Source: Erysipelotrichales bacterium
Lineage (GTDB): Bacteria; Bacillota_I; Bacilli_A; Erysipelotrichales; Erysipelotrichaceae
Length of the DNA: 64,000 nucleotides
Direction of reading: 5' to 3'
Assembly (NCBI GenBank): GCA_910575705.1
Contig: CAJTFG010000003.1
Coordinates: forward strand, 186,001-250,000
Below are positions 1-55,579 of the stretch, piece by piece. Position 1 is the first letter of the stretch; each line of letters starts with the position of its first letter. The notes beneath the pieces are model-generated. The model was not told the DNA's origin. It searched no databases and saw only the letters and a list, made by a program, of their open reading frames with translations. Position numbers and translations under genes: made by a program.

Positions 1-3000
1 AGAATACCGTTGTTCCTTCATTTGCTTCTGTATTCGCAAGTACAAACGTATGTGATGAAGGTGTAGATGTTTCCGTAACATCAAGCAATGGTTTCTTATC
101 ATCAAATTTCAAAATGACGCTTGCACCGTTACCGCCGGCATTTCCGCCAGCTTCTGCTTCCGCCTTAGACACAATCTTAAATTCATATGTGCCGCCAGAC
201 GTTACATCGAGAGTTGCTTTTCCATCCGCGTCTACTGCTAGATCAACCGGTGTTCCACCGTCAACGGTGTATACAAAGTGATCGATACCGGATAATACAC
301 GGTTGCTCGGATCTTCTTCTACCGTGATCGTTACCGTACCGTGGTAAACAGATGCCGTTGGATTTACGCTCACTTTCGGAGCCGGAGCTGCTGCATTGTC
401 AATGATGAAGCTGTTTACCAACTCTGCAGAAAGGTTTCCGGCAACATCCGTTGCAATCGCCGAAACACGATAACGTCCATCTGCCAAGCTATCAGCATTC
501 ACCGTTACTTCATTCTTACTGTCTACGGCTGCAGTCGTATCCGAGATGAGATCAATGACATTTCCATTCTCATCTACTTCATTGATGATGATACGAATCT
601 CTTTTACACCGCTCAATGTAGCCTGATCAGAAGCGTTAGCTGTAATTACCCGATCGCTAGCATTTGTTCCATTTGCGATCTTAATATTGTTTACAACAGG
701 TGCTGTTGGATCATATTTTACTTTTGCCGTAGTCGGTTTCGTTGCCAGCTTATCATCTGTCTTGAAGACGATGCTATATACATGCTCACCGATTCTATCA
801 GCAGTAAAGGAAGCCGTCTCATTTCCGTTATTCACGGACAGTTTCGTAAACGGTGCCTGTGGCGTAAATACGATCGGTACATTCGTCCAAGGCGCCGTCA
901 CAACATCATAATCCGGAGTAGTAACAAGATCCGTTGATACATCACCGGTACGTCCGGTAACCGTTAAATCAGCCGTATCGAAAATCAATGTATAGTTTTT
1001 CGTCACTGCCGGATTAGCAGTAGCCGTATCAAACTCTACAATATTGATCGTATAGGTTCCTGCCGGACTGGAAGATGTCGCATCCGTAGAGAATTTAGGT
1101 GTACCGAAATCTTCGATCACTGCACCATTCAGCAATCCTGTTACAGAATCTAATGTGAATTCCGGCAGAGGATCACCGGCTACCATCGTTGTAGCCTTCG
1201 GTGATACATGAATATCTTTGGAAGCAATCGTGAACGTTCTAGTTACCGTTTCAGAATCATAATTTCCATCATCAGCGATCGTTGCGGAAATATCAGCAAC
1301 ACCCGTACCTACGATCGTAACCTTACCTTTATCGTCTACACGCAGAACATCTTCATTGGAAGAAGAATAGCTGACTGTACCTTTGCTTAGCGTACTGCTT
1401 GCAGTCGCATCGAACGGCAGATCACCATACGTATAATTCAGCTGAGGATTCAGTTCATCAAAGCTCAACAGACTGCTCTGTTTCTCTACGATAATCGTAA
1501 AGATAACTGTCTTCTCTTCATAAATATCGTCTCCGGAAGCATGGAACGTCAATGTCGTCGTACCAGCTTTCAGGATTTCCCATTCATTTACAAAGGTACC
1601 AGAACCATCTGTATTTTGGAGGATCGGATCAGTTCCTACAGGTCCATCTACCAAAGTAACAGTACCAAAAGCATCCGCAAAGATATCCGCAAAATCGATC
1701 GTCTTATTTGGAGCATAGGAATAGCTAAATGTCTGATCTGTAAAGTTTACCTGATCTTTCTTTCCAACAATGACTTCAAAGACATTAGAAGCCAGTACAG
1801 AACCATCTGCTTCATAAGCCTCTAAGCGATAGATGCCTGCAGAAGCAGCCACTGCTTCTTTATGAATTCTGATCTTCGTTGCGCTTGGAGCCATCGCACC
1901 AGAAGAATCTACAATATCAAATTCTCCGGTAGCTTCATTTCTCTTCAACAGCTTATATTCTCTAAATGAAGTCTTAAAGCCTTCAGCCGCTTCTATATTC
2001 GTAGAAATATCAAATCCACTAGGATCACCGCTCGTCACATGGATCCAATACAATCCATTATCATCGATCGTACCGATATCGGACATCTTGTGCTGTTTAT
2101 TCTTCAAACGTTCAAATTCAGCACGCAATGCCGCAACATCACCGCTTTGACTAGCGTGAACATCCGAATGATCTCTTAATTCTTTTTCAATTTCTTCCAG
2201 CTTATCTTCAAATTCCGGAGTATTTACTACTTCATTAATAGCCGGAAGTCCTTTAATGACAATCGTTGTCGTCGCAATACGTCCGCTTACGTCCGTAGCT
2301 TCGATCACATATGTGCCAGCTTTAGAGAAGTAAGTAGCATATGTTCCCTTTTCAACATCAAAGGAAGCTGTCTTGCCATTAACTGTCACATTTGCCAAAC
2401 CACTGCCATTATCCGTTATCGTTACCTGTTTACCTAAATATGTTTCGTCCATATTCGGCGTTACCGTAATGATCGGATCTTCGTTATCGATCAACAGTAC
2501 ATCACTATAAGATACCGTTGTATTTCCTGCTTCATCTACGCTCTGTGCAGCAATGACATAGCGACCGTCGGTCGTGATATCAACACCACCAGCTGGTGCA
2601 GGCAGCCAAGTACCAAGACTGTTTTTCTCTAGCCACTCATTCAGGCTCAAAGTACCGAGATCAATAATCTGGTAATTCGCACTCATGGTATCGTCACCGT
2701 GCTCTGGAGCTACCGGTTCAATATCCGCATGATAGCCATCATCGATCTTAGAGATCTTGCCACTCAACTGAATTGCAGCAGGAGCCGTCTTATCGATTTT
2801 CACGATGTACTCATCGGAAACTTCAGAAACCTGACCTGCTTTTGTTTCATAACGGAAGAAGTATTTCTTTGCCTCTTCCTTGCCGTTTGCAGCTAATGTC
2901 TCAGTAACTCTAACAGAATCTGATGGAAGATCCTTCCATAAAGAAGCATCCTTAGCTACTTCCGCAGACGTGCAATCGGCATCGTTTACTGAACAAGACG

Positions 3001-6000
3001 TATAACGCAATCTTACCAGATCGCCGTACGTATCTAGTATCGTTCTATCGCTGAGCGTCAATGTTACATCCTTGTTAACCCATCTTGTACCATCATATTC
3101 AGCATCTTCCGTACGCATTGCAACAGAAGGCTTGTTCAGACTGACAAGTTCCAGATTAACCGTATATGGTTTTGGATCAATATATGTGACTCCAGCACCA
3201 GTTACAGCTTTGAAATAATATACGCTGTTTTCGTTATTAATGATATCCAGCGCATTCGTACCAACCATTTCCGTCCATGTAGCCTTATTATCTTTTGAAT
3301 AATAATACTTCACGCCAGAATTTGGATTGTCCTGAGCAGAAGGATTCGTCAAAGTTAATGTAAAGTTGACATTTGTCTTATCCACTTCATCCGGCTTCGT
3401 CTGATTTGGTGTTCTTGCGACATCAAATTCAGGTACGAAACCATCGATATTCGCCTGATATCTCGTCATAGCCCCGCATACACCCAAACTGTTGCATACA
3501 CGGAAATGATATGTCTGTGTAGAAGATGCCGTGAACGGATTTGTCGTCAATGCCGTCCAATGAGCAGACTGAGAAGGATCACATACTTCTTCCGTACATA
3601 CTTCAATTCGATCTACACCACTTACCGTAGGGATATTCTTATTATCTTCCACTAAGATATTATTAATGGAACTAGATGTCCATACATCGCTTCTTACCGG
3701 TGCAGAAACCGTCGGTGCAGCAGGTGCATTCTTATCAATCACCAGATCATAGCTGGAAGATACATAATTTCCTGCCTTGTCATATACCGTTGCTTTCACC
3801 AGCAGATGAGCTCCCGTATCCGGAGTCAAATCAAAGGATGCGGTATTATCACCGTTGTCCGGATCCGCAGGACTTGCACTCGTATTTGGAATGAAATTCG
3901 TCACTTCAGATCCATCCAGAGAGATTCTGTCAACACTGTATTCGTAATGATCAATGCCGCTTCCGTTCGCATTATCCGTACCATGCAGCGTGATCGTCAC
4001 GTTTTCGTTGTATACATTGCTGCTGGCAGCCTTCATGATATAAGAAGTCGCAGAAGCACCGGAAGGTTTTTGTACACTGGAAATCGTCAAATTCGGTTTT
4101 GTCTTATCGATTCTGAATGTATGCGTCAGTTTATCAGAAACGATATCTCCGGACTTCATGGCAATCTCATATTCATGTTCGCCTTCCGCAGTAATCGTCT
4201 CAGACTCCTTATAAGGGTTCATTCCGACACTGATCTGATCATATCCTACCGGCATAATAACGATATCCGTATTTACCCACGTACCATTCTTTGCACGTAA
4301 CGGATCCGTTGTAAAGTCACTTTCACTGATTTCTTTTCCAGTAATTGTCAAGACACCAGGTACAGCTTCAAACTCTACTTCATAATCATCTTGACGTGCT
4401 CCCGTATCTTTAACAAAGTCGATCAGTTTGATGTTATACAGACCAGGGCCTGTTTTTACATCTACAGGAAGTCCATTGCTGTCAAGAACTTCAAAGATCG
4501 GAGTACCTAAATCGCTGATGGTATCACCATTTACCAAATCAGCTGGATCAACAGGAGAAATCGTAAATTCAGGATTTTCCGTACCGATTTCCTTTTCCTT
4601 GGAATCCGTCTGTACTTTTATTTTCTTTCTTGCAACGTTAATCGTAACGCTGAATACTGTCTCACTATACTTATCATCTGCAGGAATAATTACCTCGATG
4701 ACTGCTTTTCCTGCACCGGTAATACGGCCTACAGATTCCGTAGTTCCATCGTCCTTCGTAACAGTCACAATATCTACTACATCCGGATTATCCGTACGAT
4801 AGATAGCCGCAGGACGTCCCTTGATGGATGGAAGAGGATCCAACGTCAAGTCGATATCCGCATCACCGTACGTATAAGAAGCCGGGTTTGTAGGAATATT
4901 GGCAAATCCGAAAGAATCATCAGATGCAGGACGAATCGTTACCTGCATATTAATCGTCTTCTCTTTATAGTTGTTATCGCCTTTTGCCGTTACTTTAAAG
5001 TTAGCAATACCAGCCTTCTTCATAGAACATGTCGTACCAGCCGTATTACATACGATAACATCTTTTGCATCACTTTCTCCAAATGACAGCTCTCCCTTGC
5101 CTGTTTTTATCTGAGAAGCAAGGTTAAGCGTAGCTGTAGCATCAAAGTCAACTTCATATGTCAAATCAACGAATGCATCCTGTGCTTTCTTTTCAATAAT
5201 GACACTGAATTCTTTCGTCATTTCAGAGTTTGATTTATCCGGGTGCATTCTATCGACTGCAACGATCTTGTAATCACCGGCAGTAGATGCATCCGCAGAC
5301 GTCGCAAGATTGAAGGTAGCAGTTGCTACAAGGCCTTCCTTCGTTGCGTTGATCTCTCTGATCTTCTGAGATCCCTTATAAAGCTGGAATGTAAATTCCG
5401 CATCCGGGAACTGAGGATCGATCTGCAAGGTAGCTGTGACATTTACAGAACTGTTAACATACGTGAATATATCATCGATCACATCCAAGCTATGCACCGG
5501 TGTAATCGTACTTTTCAGAGCATCTTTCAACTCCTCAACCTTCTGCTCCACGATCGGCAGATCGATCGGAGGATAGTTCTTCATCTCCTGCTCAATTTCT
5601 GAAATGATACCTTCCCATTTGTCGATCTTATCCGGATCGGTATCAGAAATGATATCATCCGGTACTGGGAACTTCTTAATTTCAACCTGAACAGTTGTAA
5701 CATTTCCACTTAAGTCAAGTACATTAAATACATATGGCGTGCTGGAAATTCCAGTGCTTGCATCGGTAATGCTGGCAGAAGCATCATATTCCAGCTTCAC
5801 GCTCTGATAAGAAGTCGGCGTATACTGCGTTCCATTCTTAGTTGCCGTACTGTTTACCGTATCGATACCACTGATAGCATCACTGAATTTCACAGTCTTA
5901 TTCAAATAGTAACTTCCGCCGTCCTTCAATCCGCTGTAATCCGGAGCTGTACGATCCACTGCAAACGTTCTCGTAATAGGCGTACCGCTGTTGCCAGCTT

Positions 6001-9000
6001 CATCCTTAATGTTCGCAGTTATCGTATATGCACCTTCATTTACAATAGATAACGGACTTGAATATTTCGTATTCGTATTTTCATTTACATCACCGCGCGT
6101 CAACGTGTAAGTAATGATATGAGGACTTCCGGAATCCGGCCTATCCGTAATCGTAACATCCATACCGATCTGCCCGTATTTATCGAACGTGATCGCTCTC
6201 ATGATGTCTTTGTAGAATGTAGAATTCTGTTTTTCCAAAAGAACTTTTTCCAGAGCCGGATCTGTCTTATCGATCTTCGCTGTGATCGGTGAGCTAACTA
6301 CGCCCGGTTCACCAAAAGAAGGGTTTACTCGGAAATAGTAATCCATCTCAATATCATGTTCAACGGCTACGTTCGTACGCAGCGTCTTCAGCTTCGTTGC
6401 ACCTTCTAGCATCGGTACCCAATTGCCGTCGACAACCGAACTGCCTTTCGGCACTGCCTGATACTCATAGCATCTTAACAGAGAATCGTTATCGATACCA
6501 TCTGTGATTTCAAATAATACATCCTTATTCGTCCATGTATTGCTTGTATAAGCTCCTAATTTATTTCCTGCATCATCCAATGTAAATACAGTTACCGTAG
6601 GTGCTGTAATATTAGCACGGATGATATTTACATCAAAATCTTCTGTTCCGGCATTTGTACATGCATCCGCAGTTACATTGCTAGGACATGTGATAAAGAA
6701 TTCATACGTATGAGTACCTACAGAAGTGATTTCCAATTCATAAGGTGAATTCAACGTAATGGCAGGATCTTTACCATCTACTTTATACTGCATTGTTACC
6801 GGAATATCATTCTTCTCGTTCATTGCAGCAGTCAAACGAACATTATAATTCGTCGGATCACCGCTCGCATAAGGAATGTCCGTTTCCCCAGGATAATATG
6901 CCAATCCCTCTACAGAGAATTCCAGAGGATCGCTTTCCATCATAACGGTTACCGTCGTAGGAACACCATACAATTTCTCACCTGTGCTGGAAGTCCAGTA
7001 AGCGACAATCTCAATATCATAAATGCCGTCTTCTGTCATCTTGATGGCATGAACCGTATCCGTTCCCACACCTACTGTTCCAATGTCGATAAAGTCACCA
7101 CCGGTGCTCTTCTTTCGCCATGCAAATCCTTCGATTCCGGTGTCGTTGGTATCGGAAGAACTAGGTACGATAACGACGTTCTTCAAATAAGCCCAGTTAC
7201 CCTGTACGTATTTGTTAGCATCTACTTTCCAAGACGCAACATCATTGAAATCAACAGTGCTTTCTAACTGATATCCATCAATCTTCGGCGCTGCCGGTCC
7301 GTTTTTACCAATGACCGTATAGCTATGCGTATTATCACTGCTGTTACCGGCGTGATCGTATGCAACAGCTTCAATATCAAACGTACCGTCAGAAGAAATA
7401 AACTTCGTTACTTTCTCCTGTGTTTGCGTACTCGTAAACATCAACGTTCTCGTATCTCTGATATTAGAAGTACCGTAATCTTTATAACTCAATGTAACTT
7501 TATTAATACCGGACACATGATTTGTTCCATAATGAGGATCATCTACCGGCGTAACCGTTACGTCAACAGCTGTTTTAAAATATTGGAAAGAAACAGGTGA
7601 TTTTGTCAGATATCCCAAAGACATCGTCGTAGAGTTCTTTGTTACACCTACCGTTACAGACGGCTTGCGCAAGTCAAGTTTTACCATCTGTCCCTGTCCG
7701 TCCGCTGGTTTGTCATATAAAACGATCGCTCTGGAATACTTGCTTCCTGTAGCATCCGTCAAATAGAACGTACGGTTCGTATAAGTTTCATCAGGAATAT
7801 CGATCTCAGTTCTAGGATTTACCGGCGTCCCCGTACTATCTGCCTGATCGGTAATATGCGTGAAGCCTTTCGCATTTGCTTCTGCACTCGGCTTCAACTG
7901 GACAGCCGTATTGTAGAACTTCGTAAGATCGGTAATAACATCACCATTCTTGATATTAAACGTAAGGTCACCGGATGTGATAGCTTCTGCAGTAACCGTA
8001 AGTTTTCCCGTTGTACCAGAGTCATCGTATGAAATATTATAGTTTTCATACACACTGCCCGTTGGATTAAACTCACTTCCATCTACAAATACAATCTTAT
8101 AAACACCCGGACCATAATTTTTCGGTGTATTAGCATCCAATACAACGTTTGTTCCGTCTTGCTTTTTCACAACCAAATTAGGTGTACCTAAAGAAGAGAT
8201 GGACTCATCGCTTGCAATAGTACCCGTTTTTAAAGATATGTTCTTCTTCGCTGTATCTATAACACTCGGCAGGAATTTATCATTGACAATTTCCATATTG
8301 TTGATTTGAAGAGTGATCGCTCTTCTCTTCAGAGTGATATCCAGCGTTTTTTCATGAACTTTTCCATCAGACGTCGTAACCTTTAATTTCAATGTGAAAA
8401 CACCGTCACCATTTGCGTCTATCTTTGTAGCATCTGAAATCGTAGGACGCGTTCTTGACGTATTTATATATAACTGCTTATCTTCATTCAATGTAAAGAA
8501 ATCGTTCTTTTCAGCTCCGGCAGGCAATTCGATTTTAGAAATCGTTACCGGCGGATATCCGTCAGGAACATCGATAGATTGCGCAGAAATAACACCCAGC
8601 ATGCTCGTGCCGTTATATACGGTGTCTTTATACGTAAAGTTCGTCGCAGAAGACGTCACTTTTATGTCCGGACGATCCTTACCTATTTTTAATTCTCCAG
8701 GCGTCGTAAAGTTAATGTCTTTGGACGTCGTCACATTCGTCTCTCCTGTGCCTTTATCCGTCAATGTCGCAGTAGCCGTGACCTTATATACACCTTCTGT
8801 GATCGTTCCAGCTTCTTTCGCCTTGATCACCAAAAGATATTTATTCGTCGCATCAGAATCAAGAATAAACTTATCCGTCACATCAACATCATCTAACATG
8901 ATCTTAACATTAGAATACGCAATTTTATCGACGGAAGCATCCGGAGTCTGCGCTGGAGATATCGTAGCCAGCGTATCTCCTGCCTGAATCGCATCTGCCG

Positions 9001-11065
9001 GATAACTTGGATAAGCCGTATCACCCGGCTTATACTGCGCCGGTGTCAGCGCTAAAGATTTAGGATATTCCGGATAAATATTAACTACATAGTTGATAAA
9101 CGCTGTCTGCGTACTACCGCTGATATTGTTTCTCGCTATTACTTTGAATGTCAACGTTTTCTTAGTAGAAGCATCGGTAGACGTCAATGCTTTGGTAGTC
9201 TTCAGGCTGTATTTTTCTCCTGAAGCTACACCCACTTTTGACGTGTCAGAAGCATCCGCCGTTAATGAAAATTCTTCCGGAGCTGTTCCGTCAAATGCCA
9301 GTGTATAACGCGTACCTAAAGTAGCGGAATCCGTCCCGCCTGTTAAGGTAATCATATCTAACACTTTATTTGCATCTGCCGCTGTTGTACCGGCACGCAA
9401 ATTGATCGTAGCAGTTTTTGTCGCAACATCAAAGTGCGCAGAATCAACACCGGACGCTGCTGTCAGCGTAGGAGGCGTAACACGCACTTCTCCGCCTATT
9501 TTAGCAGAAGCTGTATTTCCAGGTGTAGATACCGTTACATTCGCTACATACTTTTTACCTGTCTTACCGTCGCTACTATCTGTAGCAGCACCGACCAAAG
9601 ACTTATTCGGTCTTACAAAGAATCTATCTTCTACATTTTCACCTAAATTAGAAGGTGTATATGTAAATGTAGTTCCACATGTTCCAGATGCCGTTGCGCC
9701 TTTATCGGTAGTAGGACAAATTTCAAAATTGTCCGCGCCTTCGGCGCCTGCTCCCAATGCAATCGTATACTCCCCAATTTCAGTTGTCGTGAAAGAGAAA
9801 GAATACGTTTTTCCCTTCTGGGTTGCATTCGTGGTATCTTCCTGCACAGTCTGGGCTGTTGTCAATCCACCTGAAACCGAGAATTTTGATGGCAGATTTT
9901 TCAAATACAGAGCCGGACGCTGATAGTCTTCCCAGACCGCTTGAAAAAGAGCCCATTTAGGTTGTACTTTTGCATATTTTAATACAATATATGCGAAAAT
10001 ATTACCTGAATGATTAGTAGATAGGAAATAGTGCTTTGTCGTAGTGAAGGTAAAATCTTCGGAACCTGTACATGAAGTTTGCCCCAGGCAATCCTTTGAC
10101 AAGACTGTTAAGATACGGTGAGAATTAGAAATCGTGCTATAGCTGATCCAAGTACTTGGGTATTGATAAGATCCATAGGTTTCTCCTACGGGTAATCCAG
10201 TTGACGCATCTAACTGTGCATCAATAGGAAATCCATTTTCCGTAAGTTCATCCGCATCAATCTTACCATTACCGTTTTTGTCTGGTGTAGTCATCCCTGC
10301 TTTTCTCGTATACGCAAAAGGCATGGTATATATATAAGGATTATACATACCAGTAGTATCACTACCCGAACCAGTTCTAGGATATGGTTTTGTAGTTAAA
10401 TCAGTACCGTTACTAGTAGCCAAGGCTCTTGTACCATCGGAATTCTGCCAGTCTACCAAAACAGTTACCTGTTTGTCAGCAGCGTGATACTGATCTTTGT
10501 TCGCTCCATCATAGTACCCAACATATGTACCAAACGCACTACCTTGGATACTACCGACAAAGTTAGGTACAAAATACCTATCCATCCAGTCGGCAACAGA
10601 ACCACCAAAATAAGCATTCTGCCATGTACCAGTGATCGCCTGGTTATTCGCAGCTGCCCCGCGTGCTGTTGTTATAATAGACAAGTTCTGGTTAGAAGCT
10701 CCTTGTCCAAATGTCCATGGCGCACTTGTACAGTTACCGCTACCGCTGTTCGCATAGTAACAGTTCGTGTTCCATCCCTGAGAAGCCTGTTCGATCGGCT
10801 GCTCCGTCATGGCAACACCTTCACCTGTTTTTTCGTTCGCATAGACGATTCGCCATCTCAACGGCTGCGACACACCCGCATTGGTACCTGCGATCGGTGT
10901 GTACGTACCATACGTGAAGACATCTCCTTCTGTCAAATGAACAGAACTAGAGTCTGCTGCCGCTTCGACGGTTTTTTCCGCAAATGGCTGCACGGTCTGC
11001 AGAACAAATGTTCCGCCGACAAGCATGGCCATCGCAAACAAAATCTTCGGCATAAACTTTTTCAT
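1..11065 (-). CDS. Giant secreted Ig-like surface protein (partial, C-terminus off the left edge)
   Basis: The minus-strand frame is open from ATG 11065 to base 1, about 3,688 codons without a stop. I checked the frame at 9922, 5642 and 2. A GGGG ribosome site lies 8 nt before the ATG. Residues 1 to about 36 form a signal peptide (MKKFMPKILF, hydrophobic core, then EKTVEAA). Residues 40-390 are a DUF6273/C-type-lectin-like domain with LRWRIVY near its start and QRPALYL at its end. The rest is a chain of Ig-like units marked by DKT(A/K)P-type motifs, three MBG-like modules and two helical linkers. Short CXnC loops recur. No LPXTG is visible because the end is missing. The protein is probably a cell-surface adhesin or ligand-binding fibre. 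Its neighbour upstream is an ECF-like sigma factor on the same strand. Function is inferred from architecture only. Confidence 0.9.
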   Translation of the reverse strand, partial: MKKFMPKILFAMAMLVGGTFVLQTVQPFAEKTVEAAADSSSVHLTEGDVFTYGTYTPIAGTNAGVSQPLRWRIVYANEKTGEGVAMTEQPIEQASQGWNTNCYYANSGSGNCTSAPWTFGQGASNQNLSIITTARGAAANNQAITGTWQNAYFGGSVADWMDRYFVPNFVGSIQGSAFGTYVGYYDGANKDQYHAADKQVTVLVDWQNSDGTRALATSNGTDLTTKPYPRTGSGSDTTGMYNPYIYTMPFAYTRKAGMTTPDKNGNGKIDADELTENGFPIDAQLDASTGLPVGETYGSYQYPSTWISYSTISNSHRILTVLSKDCLGQTSCTGSEDFTFTTTKHYFLSTNHSGNIFAYIVLKYAKVQPKWALFQAVWEDYQRPALYLKNLPSKFSVSGGLTTAQTVQEDTTNATQKGKTYSFSFTTTEIGEYTIALGAGAEGADNFEICPTTDKGATASGTCGTTFTYTPSNLGENVEDRFFVRPNKSLVGAATDSSDGKTGKKYVANVTVSTPGNTASAKIGGEVRVTPPTLTAASGVDSAHFDVATKTATINLRAGTTAADANKVLDMITLTGGTDSATLGTRYTLAFDGTAPEEFSLTADASDTSKVGVASGEKYSLKTTKALTSTDASTKKTLTFKVIARNNISGSTQTAFINYVVNIYPEYPKSLALTPAQYKPGDTAYPSYPADAIQAGDTLATISPAQTPDASVDKIAYSNVKIMLDDVDVTDKFILDSDATNKYLLVIKAKEAGTITEGVYKVTATATLTDKGTGETNVTTSKDINFTTPGELKIGKDRPDIKVTSSATNFTYKDTVYNGTSMLGVISAQSIDVPDGYPPVTISKIELPAGAEKNDFFTLNEDKQLYINTSRTRPTISDATKIDANGDGVFTLKLKVTTSDGKVHEKTLDITLKRRAITLQINNMEIVNDKFLPSVIDTAKKNISLKTGTIASDESISSLGTPNLVVKKQDGTNVVLDANTPKNYGPGVYKIVFVDGSEFNPTGSVYENYNISYDDSGTTGKLTVTAEAITSGDLTFNIKNGDVITDLTKFYNTAVQLKPSAEANAKGFTHITDQADSTGTPVNPRTEIDIPDETYTNRTFYLTDATGSKYSRAIVLYDKPADGQGQMVKLDLRKPSVTVGVTKNSTTMSLGYLTKSPVSFQYFKTAVDVTVTPVDDPHYGTNHVSGINKVTLSYKDYGTSNIRDTRTLMFTSTQTQEKVTKFISSDGTFDIEAVAYDHAGNSSDNTHSYTVIGKNGPAAPKIDGYQLESTVDFNDVASWKVDANKYVQGNWAYLKNVVIVPSSSDTNDTGIEGFAWRKKSTGGDFIDIGTVGVGTDTVHAIKMTEDGIYDIEIVAYWTSSTGEKLYGVPTTVTVMMESDPLEFSVEGLAYYPGETDIPYASGDPTNYNVRLTAAMNEKNDIPVTMQYKVDGKDPAITLNSPYELEITSVGTHTYEFFITCPSNVTADACTNAGTEDFDVNIIRANITAPTVTVFTLDDAGNKLGAYTSNTWTNKDVLFEITDGIDNDSLLRCYEYQAVPKGSSVVDGNWVPMLEGATKLKTLRTNVAVEHDIEMDYYFRVNPSFGEPGVVSSPITAKIDKTDPALEKVLLEKQNSTFYKDIMRAITFDKYGQIGMDVTITDRPDSGSPHIITYTLTRGDVNENTNTKYSSPLSIVNEGAYTITANIKDEAGNSGTPITRTFAVDRTAPDYSGLKDGGSYYLNKTVKFSDAISGIDTVNSTATKNGTQYTPTSYQSVKLEYDASASITDASTGISSTPYVFNVLDLSGNVTTVQVEIKKFPVPDDIISDTDPDKIDKWEGIISEIEQEMKNYPPIDLPIVEQKVEELKDALKSTITPVHSLDVIDDIFTYVNSSVNVTATLQIDPQFPDAEFTFQLYKGSQKIREINATKEGLVATATFNLATSADASTAGDYKIVAVDRMHPDKSNSEMTKEFSVIIEKKAQDAFVDLTYEVDFDATATLNLASQIKTGKGELSFGESDAKDVIVCNTAGTTCSMKKAGIANFKVTAKGDNNYKEKTINMQVTIRPASDDSFGFANIPTNPASYTYGDADIDLTLDPLPSIKGRPAAIYRTDNPDVVDIVTVTKDDGTTESVGRITGAGKAVIEVIIPADDKYSETVFSVTINVARKKIKVQTDSKEKEIGTENPEFTISPVDPADLVNGDTISDLGTPIFEVLDSNGLPVDVKTGPGLYNIKLIDFVKDTGARQDDYEVEFEAVPGVLTITGKEISESDFTTDPLRAKNGTWVNTDIVIMPVGYDQISVGMNPYKESETITAEGEHEYEIAMKSGDIVSDKLTHTFRIDKTKPNLTISSVQKPSGASATSYIMKAASSNVYNENVTITLHGTDNANGSGIDHYEYSVDRISLDGSEVTNFIPNTSASPADPDNGDNTASFDLTPDTGAHLLVKATVYDKAGNYVSSSYDLVIDKNAPAAPTVSAPVRSDVWTSSSINNILVEDNKNIPTVSGVDRIEVCTEEVCDPSQSAHWTALTTNPFTASSTQTYHFRVCNSLGVCGAMTRYQANIDGFVPEFDVARTPNQTKPDEVDKTNVNFTLTLTNPSAQDNPNSGVKYYYSKDNKATWTEMVGTNALDIINNENSVYYFKAVTGAGVTYIDPKPYTVNLELVSLNKPSVAMRTEDAEYDGTRWVNKDVTLTLSDRTILDTYGDLVRLRYTSCSVNDADCTSAEVAKDASLWKDLPSDSVRVTETLAANGKEEAKKYFFRYETKAGQVSEVSDEYIVKIDKTAPAAIQLSGKISKIDDGYHADIEPVAPEHGDDTMSANYQIIDLGTLSLNEWLEKNSLGTWLPAPAGGVDITTDGRYVIAAQSVDEAGNTTVSYSDVLLIDNEDPIITVTPNMDETYLGKQVTITDNGSGLANVTVNGKTASFDVEKGTYATYFSKAGTYVIEATDVSGRIATTTIVIKGLPAINEVVNTPEFEDKLEEIEKELRDHSDVHASQSGDVAALRAEFERLKNKQHKMSDIGTIDDNGLYWIHVTSGDPSGFDISTNIEAAEGFKTSFREYKLLKRNEATGEFDIVDSSGAMAPSATKIRIHKEAVAASAGIYRLEAYEADGSVLASNVFEVIVGKKDQVNFTDQTFSYSYAPNKTIDFADIFADAFGTVTLVDGPVGTDPILQNTDGSGTFVNEWEILKAGTTTLTFHASGDDIYEEKTVIFTIIVEKQSSLLSFDELNPQLNYTYGDLPFDATASSTLSKGTVSYSSSNEDVLRVDDKGKVTIVGTGVADISATIADDGNYDSETVTRTFTIASKDIHVSPKATTMVAGDPLPEFTLDSVTGLLNGAVIEDFGTPKFSTDATSSSPAGTYTINIVEFDTATANPAVTKNYTLIFDTADLTVTGRTGDVSTDLVTTPDYDVVTAPWTNVPIVFTPQAPFTKLSVNNGNETASFTADRIGEHVYSIVFKTDDKLATKPTTAKVKYDPTAPVVNNIKIANGTNASDRVITANASDQATLSGVKEIRIIINEVDENGNVIDLISDTTAAVDSKNEVTVNADSLADGRYRVSAIATDVAGNLSAELVNSFIIDNAAAPAPKVSVNPTASVYHGTVTITVEEDPSNRVLSGIDHFVYTVDGGTPVDLAVDADGKATLDVTSGGTYEFKIVSKAEAEAGGNAGGNGASVILKFDDKKPLLDVTETSTPSSHTFVLANTEANEGTTVF
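940..1229 (-). repeat. MBG-like module 3 of the giant protein
   Basis: It runs from KDIHVSPKATTMVAGDPLP through EDFGTPKFS and GTYTINIVEF to NYTLIF...ADLTVTGR. It is the closest of the three to a textbook MBG repeat. Confidence 0.7.
2100..2225 (-). repeat. Charged helical linker, copy 2
   Basis: It contains EFEDKLEEIEKELRDH and ALRAEFERLKNKQ. It corresponds to the linker at 5515-5635 and again is followed by a (K/G)KxQxxF-type beta unit, then a TYGD unit, then an MBG module. Confidence 0.6.
4330..4636 (-). repeat. MBG-like module 2 of the giant protein
   Basis: It runs from KKIKVQTDSKEKEIGTENP through SDLGTPIFEV and GLYNIKLIDF to DDYEVEF...GVLTITGKE. The order of motifs matches modules 1 and 3. 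It lies about 3.7 kb from the first copy and 3.4 kb from the third. Confidence 0.7.
5515..5635 (-). repeat. Charged helical linker, copy 1
   Basis: The segment is rich in Glu and Lys with a heptad-like pattern (KIDKWEGIISEIEQEMKNY, then EQKVEELKDALKS). A similar linker occurs at 2100-2225, about 3.4 kb away, at the matching place in the next super-repeat. It breaks the otherwise all-beta chain. Confidence 0.6.
7985..8335 (-). repeat. MBG-like module 1 of the giant protein
   Basis: The module begins at RRAITLQINNMEIVND, passes through SSLGTPNLVV and GVYKIVF, and ends at NYNISY...GKLTVTAE. This is the G-x-P / GxYxI / NYxxxxxxGxLTI pattern of MBG-type surface modules. It aligns by eye with the modules at 4330-4636 and 940-1229. 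Confidence 0.65.
9908..10137 (-). other. Variable-type segment inside the giant protein, bounded by cassette cores
   Basis: On the minus strand this segment starts with GCACGATTTCT (10127-10137) and ends with CAGCGTCCGGCTCTG (9908-9922). It encodes 76 codons from TISNSHRIL to QRPAL. The same two borders flank four unexpressed fragments elsewhere in this window, so this is the candidate expressed copy of that family. It forms the C-terminal part of the N-terminal lectin-like domain, the part expected to carry the ligand-facing loops. Confidence 0.75.
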
Positions 11066-11180: not shown

Positions 11181-12257
11181 CTAATACGCAATCTCTTCAA
11201 ATCGACTGCTCCATTCTTCCTCAACCAGAAGTTGATAATAGGTGCTTCCGCTATTTTTCAACGCTTCGTAGATCGGCCTGACACCCGCTATCTCCTCACT
11301 GGTCTTCCCTTCCATCTCGATGTAGCAATGCGCCCACAACTTCAGCGTATTGTACGCCTCTTCCGCTGTGGAAATGGTTCCATCATCAGTCGTCACTGTT
11401 TGAAACGCACTGTCCGCAACTACCGATCTTCCTCGGAAGTTATCATCTATATATTCGCCTACTAAATAAATTCCGCCTACAGCGATAGCCGCTGCCGCGA
11501 TTGCCATTCCTGCTTTTGCGGCAATCGACGAGAAAGAAAATGTAGACTTTACCACCGGCGCCGCCGAATGTAAAGCGCTTACGCCAGTGCTTGCAGGTAA
11601 CTGAAATCCATTTGCATTATCCATAAAGTACTTTATCAATAATGCATCAACGCTCACAGAATGGAAATCCAATGCCGCCCCTTCTGTTCGCTCGTAATCT
11701 ATAATTTGTTCTCGAAGAACCTTTTTTGCCATATTTAACCGGGATTTTACCGTTCCTTCAGGAATCCCGCATACCGCCGCAACTTCTTTATAATTCATCT
11801 CTTCAAAATAAGTCAGAACCACGATGGTACGATACCGCATGCTCAGGTTTTCCACAAATTGATGGATCAATTCCTGATCATTTTTAAAGCGGCTCTGGCT
11901 TTGCGGGATCATATAGTTTCTCGTTTCCGCCTGACGCTTCCATATAATATCATCGTCATCATAAAGAGAATCCTTATTTTTCGCAAAGATCTTATTCAGC
12001 TTTGATACGACGATCCGTTTTACCCAAAGCCGAAAAACCTTTATCTCTCTTAAATTCTTTATCGACTTGTGAATCTCTATAAAAGTTTCCTGCGTGGCAT
12101 CTATCGCATCTGCATCGCAATTAGCAATTTGCATTGCAAGATAATAGGTCGACTTATAGAAACGTTTATACAATTCTTCAAATGCCTCTTCATCCCCCAT
12201 TTGGCATAATTCAATAATCTCTTCGTCAGTCTTTTGCCTCATAGTAAACTTTTCCAT
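11181..12257 (-). CDS. Membrane-tethered ECF-like RNA polymerase sigma factor
   Basis: The 358-residue product has sigma region 2 at about residues 15-90 (QETFIEIHKSI, FRLWVKRIV) and region 4 at about 135-185 (YKEVAAVCGIPEGTVKSRL, a helix-turn-helix). A linker is followed by one transmembrane helix at about 244-267 and a 90-residue tail predicted outside the cell. Ordinary ECF factors end after region 4 near residue 190, so the membrane and external parts are an extension that could act as a built-in sensor or anti-sigma. The first ATG (12257) is only about a dozen bases from the predicted -10, so the true start may be Met6 at 12242. The gene is upstream of the giant surface protein on the same strand and may control it; this is inferred from position. 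Confidence 0.85.
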   Translation of the reverse strand: MEKFTMRQKTDEEIIELCQMGDEEAFEELYKRFYKSTYYLAMQIANCDADAIDATQETFIEIHKSIKNLREIKVFRLWVKRIVVSKLNKIFAKNKDSLYDDDDIIWKRQAETRNYMIPQSQSRFKNDQELIHQFVENLSMRYRTIVVLTYFEEMNYKEVAAVCGIPEGTVKSRLNMAKKVLREQIIDYERTEGAALDFHSVSVDALLIKYFMDNANGFQLPASTGVSALHSAAPVVKSTFSFSSIAAKAGMAIAAAAIAVGGIYLVGEYIDDNFRGRSVVADSAFQTVTTDDGTISTAEEAYNTLKLWAHCYIEMEGKTSEEIAGVRPIYEALKNSGSTYYQLLVEEEWSSRFEEIAY

Positions 12258-17021: not shown

Positions 17022-17293
17022 AAAAGCTTTCATCCATATAGGACGAAAGCTTGCTTCGTGTTACCACCTATGTTTATGAATACCTCGCGATACTCACCTC
17101 ATCAAGTACGCCTGCATGCAGGTTATACTCTATCGCTGTAACGGGCGCCCCCGTCGTAATCTAACCAAAGGTTCAACTACGCTACTCCAAGACCATTTTC
17201 AACAGTTATTACCTCTGTCCTCTTCCACCGCACAAGGACTCTCTAGAAAAGCTTTACCTGTCTACTCTTCTTTTCATCGTCAATGTCTTATCT
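17022..17293 (-). promoter_or_regulatory. Methionine-specific T-box leader of metNIQ
   Basis: The minus-strand leader carries the T-box sequence AGGTGGTAACACGAAGC (within 17053-17070), just before a terminator hairpin (arms in 17022-17052) with a T-run. Upstream is a stem-I region with AGAGAG near 17240. A specifier candidate ATG (17194-17196) lies in the context GAAAATGGTCTTGGAGTAG; the GAGTAG after it is typical of T-box specifier loops. ATG specifies methionine, matching the operon. Uncharged tRNA-Met would stabilise the antiterminator and turn on import. Confidence 0.88.
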
Positions 17294-26224: not shown

Positions 26225-26571
26225 TTATAACAAATAAACATGTACGAAATAAGGGAATTCATTCCCTTTTTCCTCTGCATCGCATACACCATCATAATAC
26301 GTATTACAATGATCGGATGCATCTGGCAGAGCCGGACGCTGATCGAAACGTGCACGAATTACTCCCGTATTGAGGCCGCCGCAGCTGTATACTGCTGCTG
26401 ACTGCAATGTAAGAGGAGCCGTGGATAATAAAATTCGATGACCAAGATCACTGCCGTCACTGACATAATAAGAAAAGAATACATCATAAGAGCCGTCACA
26501 TTGCGATATTGCCGGTCCGCTACAGGTAGTTGTGAATATCGGCAATATTTGATGATGAACAGAAATCGTGC
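26225..26571 (-). other. Silent cassette A (lectin-like segment, promoterless)
   Basis: GCACGATTTCT (26561-26571) opens and CAGCGTCCGGCTCTG (26327-26341) closes an 81-codon stop-free frame from TISVHHQIL to QRPAL. The frame then runs on to a stop at 26225 through a tail with DHCNTYYDGVC. Upstream there is no ATG or ribosome site, only an A/T-rich stretch. The interior (TCSGPAISQC, SYYVSDGSDLGHR) is unlike the other copies. It is therefore an unexpressed coding fragment of the giant-protein lectin-like domain family. Confidence 0.75.
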
Positions 26572-26669
26572 GCAAAAAAAGAAAAGAGATCCGCCTACCT
26601 TTTTTTTATTATACAACCTCTATTCTACGTATAGAATCATGATACCTACCATAATTACCGTTCTTTATA

Positions 26670-26990
26670 TAGAGCCGGACGCTGAATCGCTTCGTCTTTA
26701 CGGGAAGTAAATGGGCTACCCCAAGAGCCATCGGAATGTAGACCTCCGGTTCTTGCTCGGTCATAGTATGTTGCCAAAAAGGTAGTTTCCCATTGCTGCG
26801 CGGTCAGCTTTTTCCAATTGAGGGCAATATCGGGTTCCTTATTTATAACTAAAACAACCCCATGATAATTAGAAATCGTGCTCCCAAAGTGACCGAACCA
26901 CCATATTAAGCGAACTCCAATCCTCTCCATAGTGAACGAATCCCAGACCAATTATTTTAAAGAAGATCCCCCTTATGCATGAAATTTCAT
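26670..26990 (-). other. Silent cassette B with a long conserved 5' flank
   Basis: GCACGATTTCT (26871-26881) and CAGCGTCCGGCTCTA (26670-26684) enclose 70 stop-free codons from TISNYHGVV to QRPAL; the frame then stops after YKER. The bases upstream to about 26990 match the flank of cassette D at 49946-50057 almost base for base in blocks such as ATGCATAAGGGG, CTGGGATTCGTT, GAGGATTGGAGTTCG and GGTTCGGTCACTTTGG. In frame this flank reads WDSFxxxRIGVR...FGHFG. The 3' flank also resembles those of C and D. It lies head-to-tail with cassette A, about 100 bp upstream of it. Confidence 0.75.
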
Positions 26991-49575: not shown

Positions 49576-49597
49576 AGGGAGTGATCCCTTTTTTATG
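49575..49597 (+). terminator. Terminator of the SDR gene
   Basis: AAAGGGA and TCCCTTT with six T residues. It isolates cassette C from upstream transcription. Confidence 0.85.
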
Positions 49598-49649
49598 GTA
49601 AGATATAGATAAAGGATCGTATATAGGATCCGGCATTCCTTTTTAAAGA

Positions 49650-49909
49650 GCACGATTTCTGTTCATAATGGATTTATCTTGTATCTGACACAATTTCTTG
49701 AAGATTACGGTTCTTTGCCTGCTTTAAAATTTACCGAAGATAAGAGATTTTGGACTTCTACAACGATACAAAACCCAAAATGGGCGATTGCGGTTACAAA
49801 TTCCGGAGGGTGCGATTGGATGTTTGCGATAGGAGAAGCAAATAGTGTAGCAAAGACCATGGGATCACAGCGTCCGGCTCTGATGATATTGGATAACTAT
49901 GGTAAGTAG
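49650..49909 (+). other. Silent cassette C (promoterless lectin-like segment)
   Basis: GCACGATTTCT (49650-49660) and CAGCGTCCGGCTCTG (49868-49882) enclose 77 stop-free codons from TISVHNGFI to QRPAL; the frame ends after MILDNYGK. No ribosome site or start precedes the TIS codons, and a terminator lies upstream. The interior is unlike cassettes A, B and D. Its 3' flank (ATGATATT, CTATG, TCAAATA, CAGAGG) matches that of cassette D. Confidence 0.75.
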
Positions 49910-49945
49910 CATAGTTCAAATAGCATGCAGAGGGAATGGTAGAAA

Positions 49946-50320
49946 AAAAGATAGAATTTTATGCATAAGGGGAACTTTGTTTAAAACTCGGACTGGGATT
50001 CGTTTAAAGCGGTGAGGATTGGAGTTCGTTTCTAAGGTAGGTTCGGTCACTTTGGAGGCACGATTTCTACTCATCATGGCATCCTTACAAGGATGGCAGG
50101 GGGATATGGCGGCTCCATAGATTCTGCACTACAGTGGATAAACATGCTGCCGTCTTCTCCCGGTGCAGACTTCGTGTTTCAATCGACAGCTTACAACGAT
50201 ATCGCTCTCCATGGAAACCGCAGCGTTTATGCCATCACTCTTGCCGGTGGTACTTCCTTTGCAGGAGGAGCTTATGAGACCATGCGCATGCAGCGTCCGG
50301 CTCTGATGATATTAAGATAG
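49946..50320 (+). other. Silent cassette D with a long conserved 5' flank
   Basis: GCACGATTTCT (50058-50068) and CAGCGTCCGGCTCTG (50291-50305) enclose 82 stop-free codons from TISTHHGIL to QRPAL, then MILR and a stop. The 5' flank from about 49946 is shared with cassette B. In this copy the flank has an in-frame TAA (after RIGVRF) while the part between the borders is clean. Past the 3' flank, AGAGGATTGG.GTTCGG near 50355 repeats the 5'-flank sequence, as if another unit once followed. Confidence 0.75.
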
Positions 50321-50398
50321 CTATGATAGGTATTATAGCTCAAATAACATACAGAGGATTGGTGTTCGGCCACAAAGGTGAGGAAAGTATCCTAATAA

Positions 50399-55445: not shown

Positions 55446-55505
55446 AGCGTTGCCTCTCTTTCTAACTTACAGGGGTATTAAAAAAACAGTCTTCCCCCAG
55501 ACATT

Positions 55506-55572
55506 TGCCCAGACGGTCGGCTGTTATAACGTCATACTTCACGTGGTTATCCACTTCCGTCAGTCATATGAC
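55506..55572 (-). promoter_or_regulatory. ZTP (pfl motif) riboswitch
   Basis: The minus-strand leader contains P1 GTCATA/TATGAC, the core GACTGACGG, hairpin GTGGATAACCAC with GTGAAG after it, and the 3' element CCGTCTGGGCA. The usual pseudoknot GGCG/CGCC is replaced by the compensating pair GACGG/CCGTC, which supports real folding. The class senses ZTP/ZMP, signals of low formyl-folate. Control of a formate-making enzyme fits. A T-run at 55478-55485 follows about 20-30 bases later and may belong to a terminator. Confidence 0.9.
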
Positions 55573-55579
55573 TAACAAA

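Follow-up and report, generated by a model that had tools for sequence, protein, structure and literature searches.

Two kinds of described system come closest to the locus analysed here. Diversity-generating retroelements (DGRs) are known as random adenine-based mutators whose template usually lies beside the reverse transcriptase (RT), and silent-cassette switching is known as a form of DNA recombination. In silent-cassette gene conversion, represented by Borrelia vlsE and Neisseria pilE/pilS, one expressed surface gene is served by many silent donors, and the donor is kept. The DNA studied here, a stretch of 64,000 nucleotides from an Erysipelotrichales bacterium (the window; contig C3:186001-250000 of a genome of 1.845 Mb in 11 contigs), resembles vlsE and pilE in having one expressed surface gene, silent in-frame donors without a start of their own and copying that keeps the donor. 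Unlike in those systems, extended homology is absent, the interiors of the donors having almost nothing in common with the expressed gene, and the donors bear an RNA-type hairpin, many of them also a promoter-like motif, in a genome that encodes a DGR RT. With DGRs, both those of the Bordetella phage BPP-1 type and the DUF6273-target DGRs of gut phages and Clostridia, it shares an RT with YMDD and GxxxSQ motifs and an Avd neighbour, a TR-like donor ending in a GC-rich, RPAL-coding border followed by a structured spacer hairpin, and a variable region (VR) at the C-terminal end of a putative lectin-like domain (placement according to PMC11792537 and PMC10743442). However, about 136 templates are found here instead of one or a few, they are unlinked to the RT, their interiors, far from being adenine variants of one another, have unrelated sequences and lengths and show no adenine bias, the RT has a motif-4 Q in place of the L/I/M/P of its relatives, and no hairpin follows the VR. 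As adenine bias, template linkage and a VR hairpin were each looked for and not found, this is not a canonical DGR. More than one template type for a single surface-protein DGR system has also been described in Treponema denticola, but there the TR variants (three types in isolates, more in metagenomes) occur mostly between strains and mutate adenines (PMC4891356), whereas about 136 mostly unrelated templates are found here in one genome. A search of the open-access literature found no multi-template DGR archive.

The window contains five cassettes with exact borders, as a sequence-only reading of the same DNA had described, with lengths of 230, 245, 212, 233 and 248 bp and interiors that are stop-free in the frame assigned to them. 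The one at 9908..10137 (minus strand, 76 codons) is the expressed VR, in frame with the gene of a giant surface protein and not followed by a donor-type hairpin. The others are silent template cassettes, stop-free throughout, of which 26327..26571 (81 codons) and 26670..26881 (70 codons) lie on the minus strand and 49650..49882 (77 codons) and 50058..50305 (82 codons) on the plus strand. Each continues into a 3' tail made of the right border and a hairpin, matched by a covariance model at 26269..26341 (minus; C3:212269-212341, 66.4 bits), 26614..26684 (minus; C3:212614-212684, 66 bits; a TR/spacer-like RNA), 49868..49936 (plus; C3:235868-235936, 66.7 bits) and 50291..50360 (plus; C3:236291-236360, 73.5 bits), respectively. 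Upstream of the plus-strand pair lies a predicted extended -10 element (TGGTAAGAT, 49597..49605, plus), recognised by sequence and belonging to a motif class enriched upstream of templates. The one segment that sits in an expressed gene is 9908-10137. The same reading held that four of the five lack a promoter and start, but the donors are not featureless: nearly all have the 3' tail, and a good part of them have an upstream motif. Elsewhere in the window, Rfam reported above its gathering scores only a T-box leader (17036-17286, minus) and a ZMP/ZTP riboswitch (55500-55577, minus).

Genome-wide, the right border CAGCGTCCGGCTCT occurs in 138 copies with at most one mismatch, compared with none for a reversed-pattern control. 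In each cassette unit, 59-97 variable codons stand between an 11-bp left border and the GC-rich right border CAGCGTCCGGCTCTG, which encodes QRPAL. A census of the genome stretches carrying the right border gave 137 border pairs of 59-97 codons, 134 of them in frame; exactly one lies in an expressed gene, and about 136 are silent. Stops are lacking in 132 of the 137, against 2.1 expected from shuffled interiors. A first census, limited to 124 pairs, showed that any one of the other five reading frames is interrupted by stops in 116-123 of them. The sequence-only reading, which took the segments for a donor reservoir, had depended on whether border pairs recur elsewhere and on whether other copies gather stops: the pairs proved abundant and the stops have not accumulated. 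The pairs of the first census form 55 clusters of 1-7, with gaps of mostly 70-270 bp inside a cluster, and the silent cassettes are scattered over more than 50 intergenic clusters. At 70% identity these 124 cassettes fall into 85 families, mostly singletons. Most donors match the expression site over no more than 11-12 bp at the left border and 15-19 bp at the right one, the interiors being unrelated; in 17-19 of the 136 donors the left border is extended by 12-40 bp.

Silent cassettes are under purifying selection and are kept as protein-coding sequence, with a dN/dS of about 0.30 and 655 of 1,353 differences between related copies at third codon positions, which fits their occasional use at the expression site. 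Decayed templates are few; two have in-frame stops, and a few others are frame-shifted or have no 3' hairpin (C1:152119-152331, C1:220091-220276, C1:226554, C1:264857, C1:530105, C1:578480 and C1:613415 make up this set). An origin of the cassettes by chance or as gene debris was ruled out by the upkeep of the frame together with the exact copies described below. Three mosaic cassettes (C1:288987, C1:437218 and C1:530836) have first halves that are near-identical or similar and second halves that differ, as if they had come from template switching or partial conversion.

The gene that holds the expressed cassette (C3:176531-197065) runs off the left end of the window, in which the N-terminal 3,688 of its 6,844 amino acids are encoded (2..11065, minus). 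The protein begins with a signal peptide and the cassette-bearing variable domain, continues with Ig-like (Big/MBG) repeats and ends, beyond the window, in a region rich in Pro, Asn and Gly, followed by a membrane helix and a short, charged tail. Its N-terminal region occurs in full just once in the genome, and no counterpart of this N-terminus was found in viral contigs. Directly upstream lies a gene for a sigma-70/ECF-type sigma factor (11181..12257, minus; Pfam Sigma70_r4_2 54.7 bits, Sigma70_r2 34 bits), which might control the giant gene or the template promoters. A relative from the same family, G085, has a homologous pair of sigma factor and surface protein (locus L086; sigma gene L086:1969-2946), and its surface protein reads TWIDYQTI and VIRPALYF where the giant protein has the borders TWISYSTI and QRPALYL; a protein search found no cassette copies in G085.

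The window domain is 36% identical to the protein of G085, with the same start and RPALY end, and matches the DUF6273 profile weakly (E 0.094); these ends, this likeness and the weak profile match together suggest that it is of the lectin type. Its own AlphaFold model, computed with the cassettes as alignment, was poor (pLDDT 50.6). The DUF6273 domain of a canonical relative was modelled with a pLDDT of 90.7 as a C-type lectin fold, which superposed on the N-terminal domain of the Thomasclavelia ramosa IgA peptidase (Z 17.8, 2.1 A, 163 residues) and, in a second look with VIA-align, on many C-type lectins (Z 5-6.4 over about 100 residues); in Foldseek, 9qa6 was the only significant match to this model. 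DGR variable regions have been mapped to the C-terminus of DUF6273, whose fold was called C-type-lectin-like (PMC11792537, PMC10743442).

The expressed cassette is identical to the silent cassette C1:632805-633034 over all 230 bp, and the identity continues for 15 bp on the left and 2 bp on the right. This is a single donor-to-expression copy, seen in one genome. A silent cassette that stands base for base in the surface gene bears out the proposed donor reservoir for cassette exchange, and this reading is strongly supported. The silent copies show the same pattern among themselves. The pair C1:78555 and C1:150574 is identical with 0 bp of identity beyond either border, and the pair C1:150959 and C3:32182 with 2 and 0 bp, the flanks being unrelated in both cases; in other near-identical silent pairs the flanks are mostly at background similarity, and C1:489529 and C1:621966 have the downstream hairpin in common as well. 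Since identity is confined to the borders and the flanks are unrelated, the copied unit extends from border to border, and template loci also receive copies.

Beyond what the sequence-only reading could see, the machinery is likely indicated by two features, namely that the donors resemble DGR template RNAs and that a DGR-type RT with Avd is encoded in the genome. In nearly every donor a hairpin begins inside the right border, where CTCTG pairs with a CAGAG lying about 50 nt further on; the two enclose an inner stem of the AACTATGATAAGTATCATAGTT kind, and the 3' layout reads CGTCCGGCTCTG (RPAL), then CTCTG...ATGATAAGTATCAT...CAGAGGAA. Among 46 diverse donors, two-sided changes were found in 12 of the 15 pairs, with 98 compensatory cells compared with 20 in shuffles (0 of 500 shuffles reached 98), and the covariation was destroyed by sliding the pairing by 1-3 columns. 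On the donor sense strand, G-U wobble pairs outnumber A-C ones by 54 to 14, and the folding molecule is therefore most likely sense-strand RNA. Within 400 bp upstream, 52 of the 136 donors have a promoter- or leader-like motif (resembling an extended -10 followed by AGGTAG), as against 1% of random stretches. The structured 3' tail together with this upstream motif makes it likely that the donors are small RNA genes and are transcribed; transcripts would start near AAAGGTAG and run through the hairpin. Many templates also have degenerate tandem units of about 25-30 nt (such as GAGGATTGGAGTTCGTTTAAxATGGTGAGG) directly before the left border, for example at 49990-50057 and 26882-26960 of the window, and a core GGnnnTTC motif precedes the left border in 47 of 136 templates; perhaps these units form a 5' RNA structure or a cDNA stop signal.

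The donor ends can be set beside those of canonical templates, in which a GTCCGCCCCGC-type end (VRPA) leads into the spacer, with a first helix such as ACTCCC...CCGTAAGTACGG...GGGAGTAAAGGAA (layout judged by eye). A covariance model built from the donors only (R1) found its best match in 111 kb of canonical loci at the TR/spacer junction of L108, a locus of the uncultured Erysipelotrichaceae bacterium RUG087 that is also present as L099 in genome G059; outside its own genome this match is modest, its E value of 0.015 being rough. On the strength of this shared locus, the family to which G059 belongs was taken to be Erysipelotrichaceae. Of the canonical spacer RNA of about 200 nt, only the first helix is recognisable in the donors. 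In BPP-1, RT and Avd are recruited by the spacer, which also provides, downstream of the TR, the adenine used for priming (PMC12875486), and a GC-rich 14-bp element forms part of the VR 3' end; for cDNA integration at the other end, 8 bp of identity are enough and at least 19 bp are better (PMC3240598). Both borders fit these requirements, the right one being GC-rich and the left one 11 bp long, or longer by 12-40 bp in 17-19 donors. BPP-1 also requires a DNA hairpin or cruciform just downstream of the VR (PMC3240598); after the expressed VR there is no inverted repeat, and the DNA there folds more weakly than shuffles (z +1.7).

The only RT found in the genome (C2:179009-180247, minus, 412 aa) is of the DGR type. 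Among the structures in the PDB it is closest in sequence to the BPP-1 DGR RT (E 3.6e-43), with retron, DRT and group II intron enzymes far behind (1e-14 for a group II intron protein). An Avd-like gene lies directly upstream, scoring 45.6 bits with Pfam bAvd (cut-off 40) and 41 bits with the NCBIfam Avd model, under its cut-off of 80; both genes are intact open reading frames. The RT adjoins neither the target gene nor donors, and no border pair, repeat or canonical TR was found around it. BLAST of the 8 kb around it against the cassette-bearing part of the genome gave nothing, with about 1 Mb of the genome outside the comparison. Ten relatives of the RT were found in named genomes. Canonical DGRs, with the TR beside the RT, make up the eight distinct loci L101 and L103-L109, where TR-VR mismatches fall at TR adenines in 17/18, 21/21, 19/19, 20/21, 13/14, 20/21, 18/23 and 21/23 cases. 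Most VRs of these loci finish in a VRPALW-type motif of a DUF6273-like protein, and twenty further loci from viral contigs are adenine-biased too. At L107:494-7160 (a Phascolarctobacterium MAG), four tandem DUF6273 genes stand beside a canonical DGR, and at least two of them carry VRs for the same TR.

The RT of this genome has the motifs YMDD and GNLVSQ, the latter preceded by Q instead of I/V/L, and this residue is L/I/M/P in the 34 relatives aligned with it (35 sequences compared). The DGR motif has been defined as (I/V/L)GxxxSQ, many non-DGR enzymes have Q at this position (QGxxxSP), and motif 4 has only been hypothesised to set DGR fidelity (PMC3521204). Between the donor and the expressed cassette, none of 66 adenines has changed, an outcome with odds of about 0.001 if the per-adenine error were 10%. 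AAY codons make up 4.8% of codons in donors, compared with 33-42% in five canonical TRs. Canonical adenine mutagenesis among the donors was rejected, as the substitutions between related donors (CT 411, AG 320, AT 237, AC 154, GT 133, CG 98) show no adenine excess. Residue I181 of the BPP-1 bRT reportedly affects adenine errors, and we take it to occupy the same place as the motif-4 Q. Given this Q, the 66 kept adenines and the lack of an adenine excess, copying looks faithful, and we infer that the enzyme may be tuned for fidelity owing to its altered motif 4.

An archive of this kind was sought in relatives with model R1, using stricter filters in the large runs, and none was found in 272 other genomes of the family and 315 other genomes of the order, in a collection where the genus is represented by one genome only. 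Weak family matches (L112, L113) and viral contigs carrying the 17-mer (L126, L127) were judged to be chance, as the sequence was coding or unrelated.

At the level of sequence, the genome combines a frame-kept archive, a single expression site, an exact border-confined copy, a covarying hairpin like TR/spacer ends and a DGR-type RT with Avd; that the RT does the copying and that surface switching is its purpose are readings which these features suggest. We consider it probable that the system derives from a DGR, draws on an archive and works by cassette retrohoming, apparently without mutagenesis. The roughly 136 silent cassettes would act as template (TR-like) RNA genes, in which the right border CAGCGTCCGGCTCTG would work like IMH* and the hairpin like the DGR spacer RNA. 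The single DGR RT with Avd would copy one template into cDNA, which would take the place of the corresponding border-to-border segment in the only expressed gene. What is exchanged in this way would be the C-terminal portion of the putatively lectin-type N-terminal domain that forms the tip of the giant membrane-anchored protein. The fuller picture of RT-driven antigenic variation, with a faithful DGR enzyme, over 130 RNA template genes serving as its library, one giant surface protein and copies passing between template loci too, appears reasonably likely.

Gene conversion by homologous recombination through the short borders, as in pilE/pilS or vlsE, with the DGR RT unrelated or a relic, would predict much of what is seen here: one expression site, many silent in-frame copies and exact border-to-border copying with the donor kept are its classic pattern, and exactness would call for no special polymerase. 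Yet in most donors recombination would have to make do with 11-12 bp of left-hand and 15-19 bp of right-hand homology, their interiors are unrelated and the flanks of identical copies are non-homologous, and the covarying RNA hairpin, its likeness to TR/spacer ends and a DGR core without a nearby template would go unexplained, so that we regard this route as unlikely. RT-driven copying derived from a DGR is the best explanation, because a single account then covers the borders, the enzyme and the RNA hairpin.

The hairpin could instead be an attC-like single-strand DNA site for a tyrosine recombinase, three clear examples of which are encoded in the genome, and units of a cassette with an imperfect palindrome in tandem clusters do recall integrons. 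However, the expressed copy is without a hairpin and the donor is retained, which points to a copy and not to cut-and-paste; moreover, the wobble pairs favour sense RNA over DNA and the clusters are dispersed over the genome instead of gathered at one integrase, and an integron-like origin thus seems highly improbable to us. Just as little credence is given to a dead archive, in which the cassettes spread and were used formerly in a lineage where the system no longer works: the few decayed copies, two with in-frame stops and some frame-shifted or hairpin-less, would suit such a history, but 132 of 137 pairs are stop-free, dN/dS among related cassettes stays near 0.30, the genes for RT and Avd are unbroken, and no difference has yet arisen between the expressed copy and its donor.

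If DGR-derived cassette copying operates as proposed, this genome, which appears to join a DGR machine with a heritable cassette library, would represent a new way of making programmed surface variation and a compact apparatus with which chosen cassettes could be written into a gene. With its motif-4 Q and apparently exact copying, it would also offer a natural experiment on why DGR RTs mutate adenines. It further suggests that DGR surveys keyed on a TR beside the RT or on adenine bias would miss such systems.
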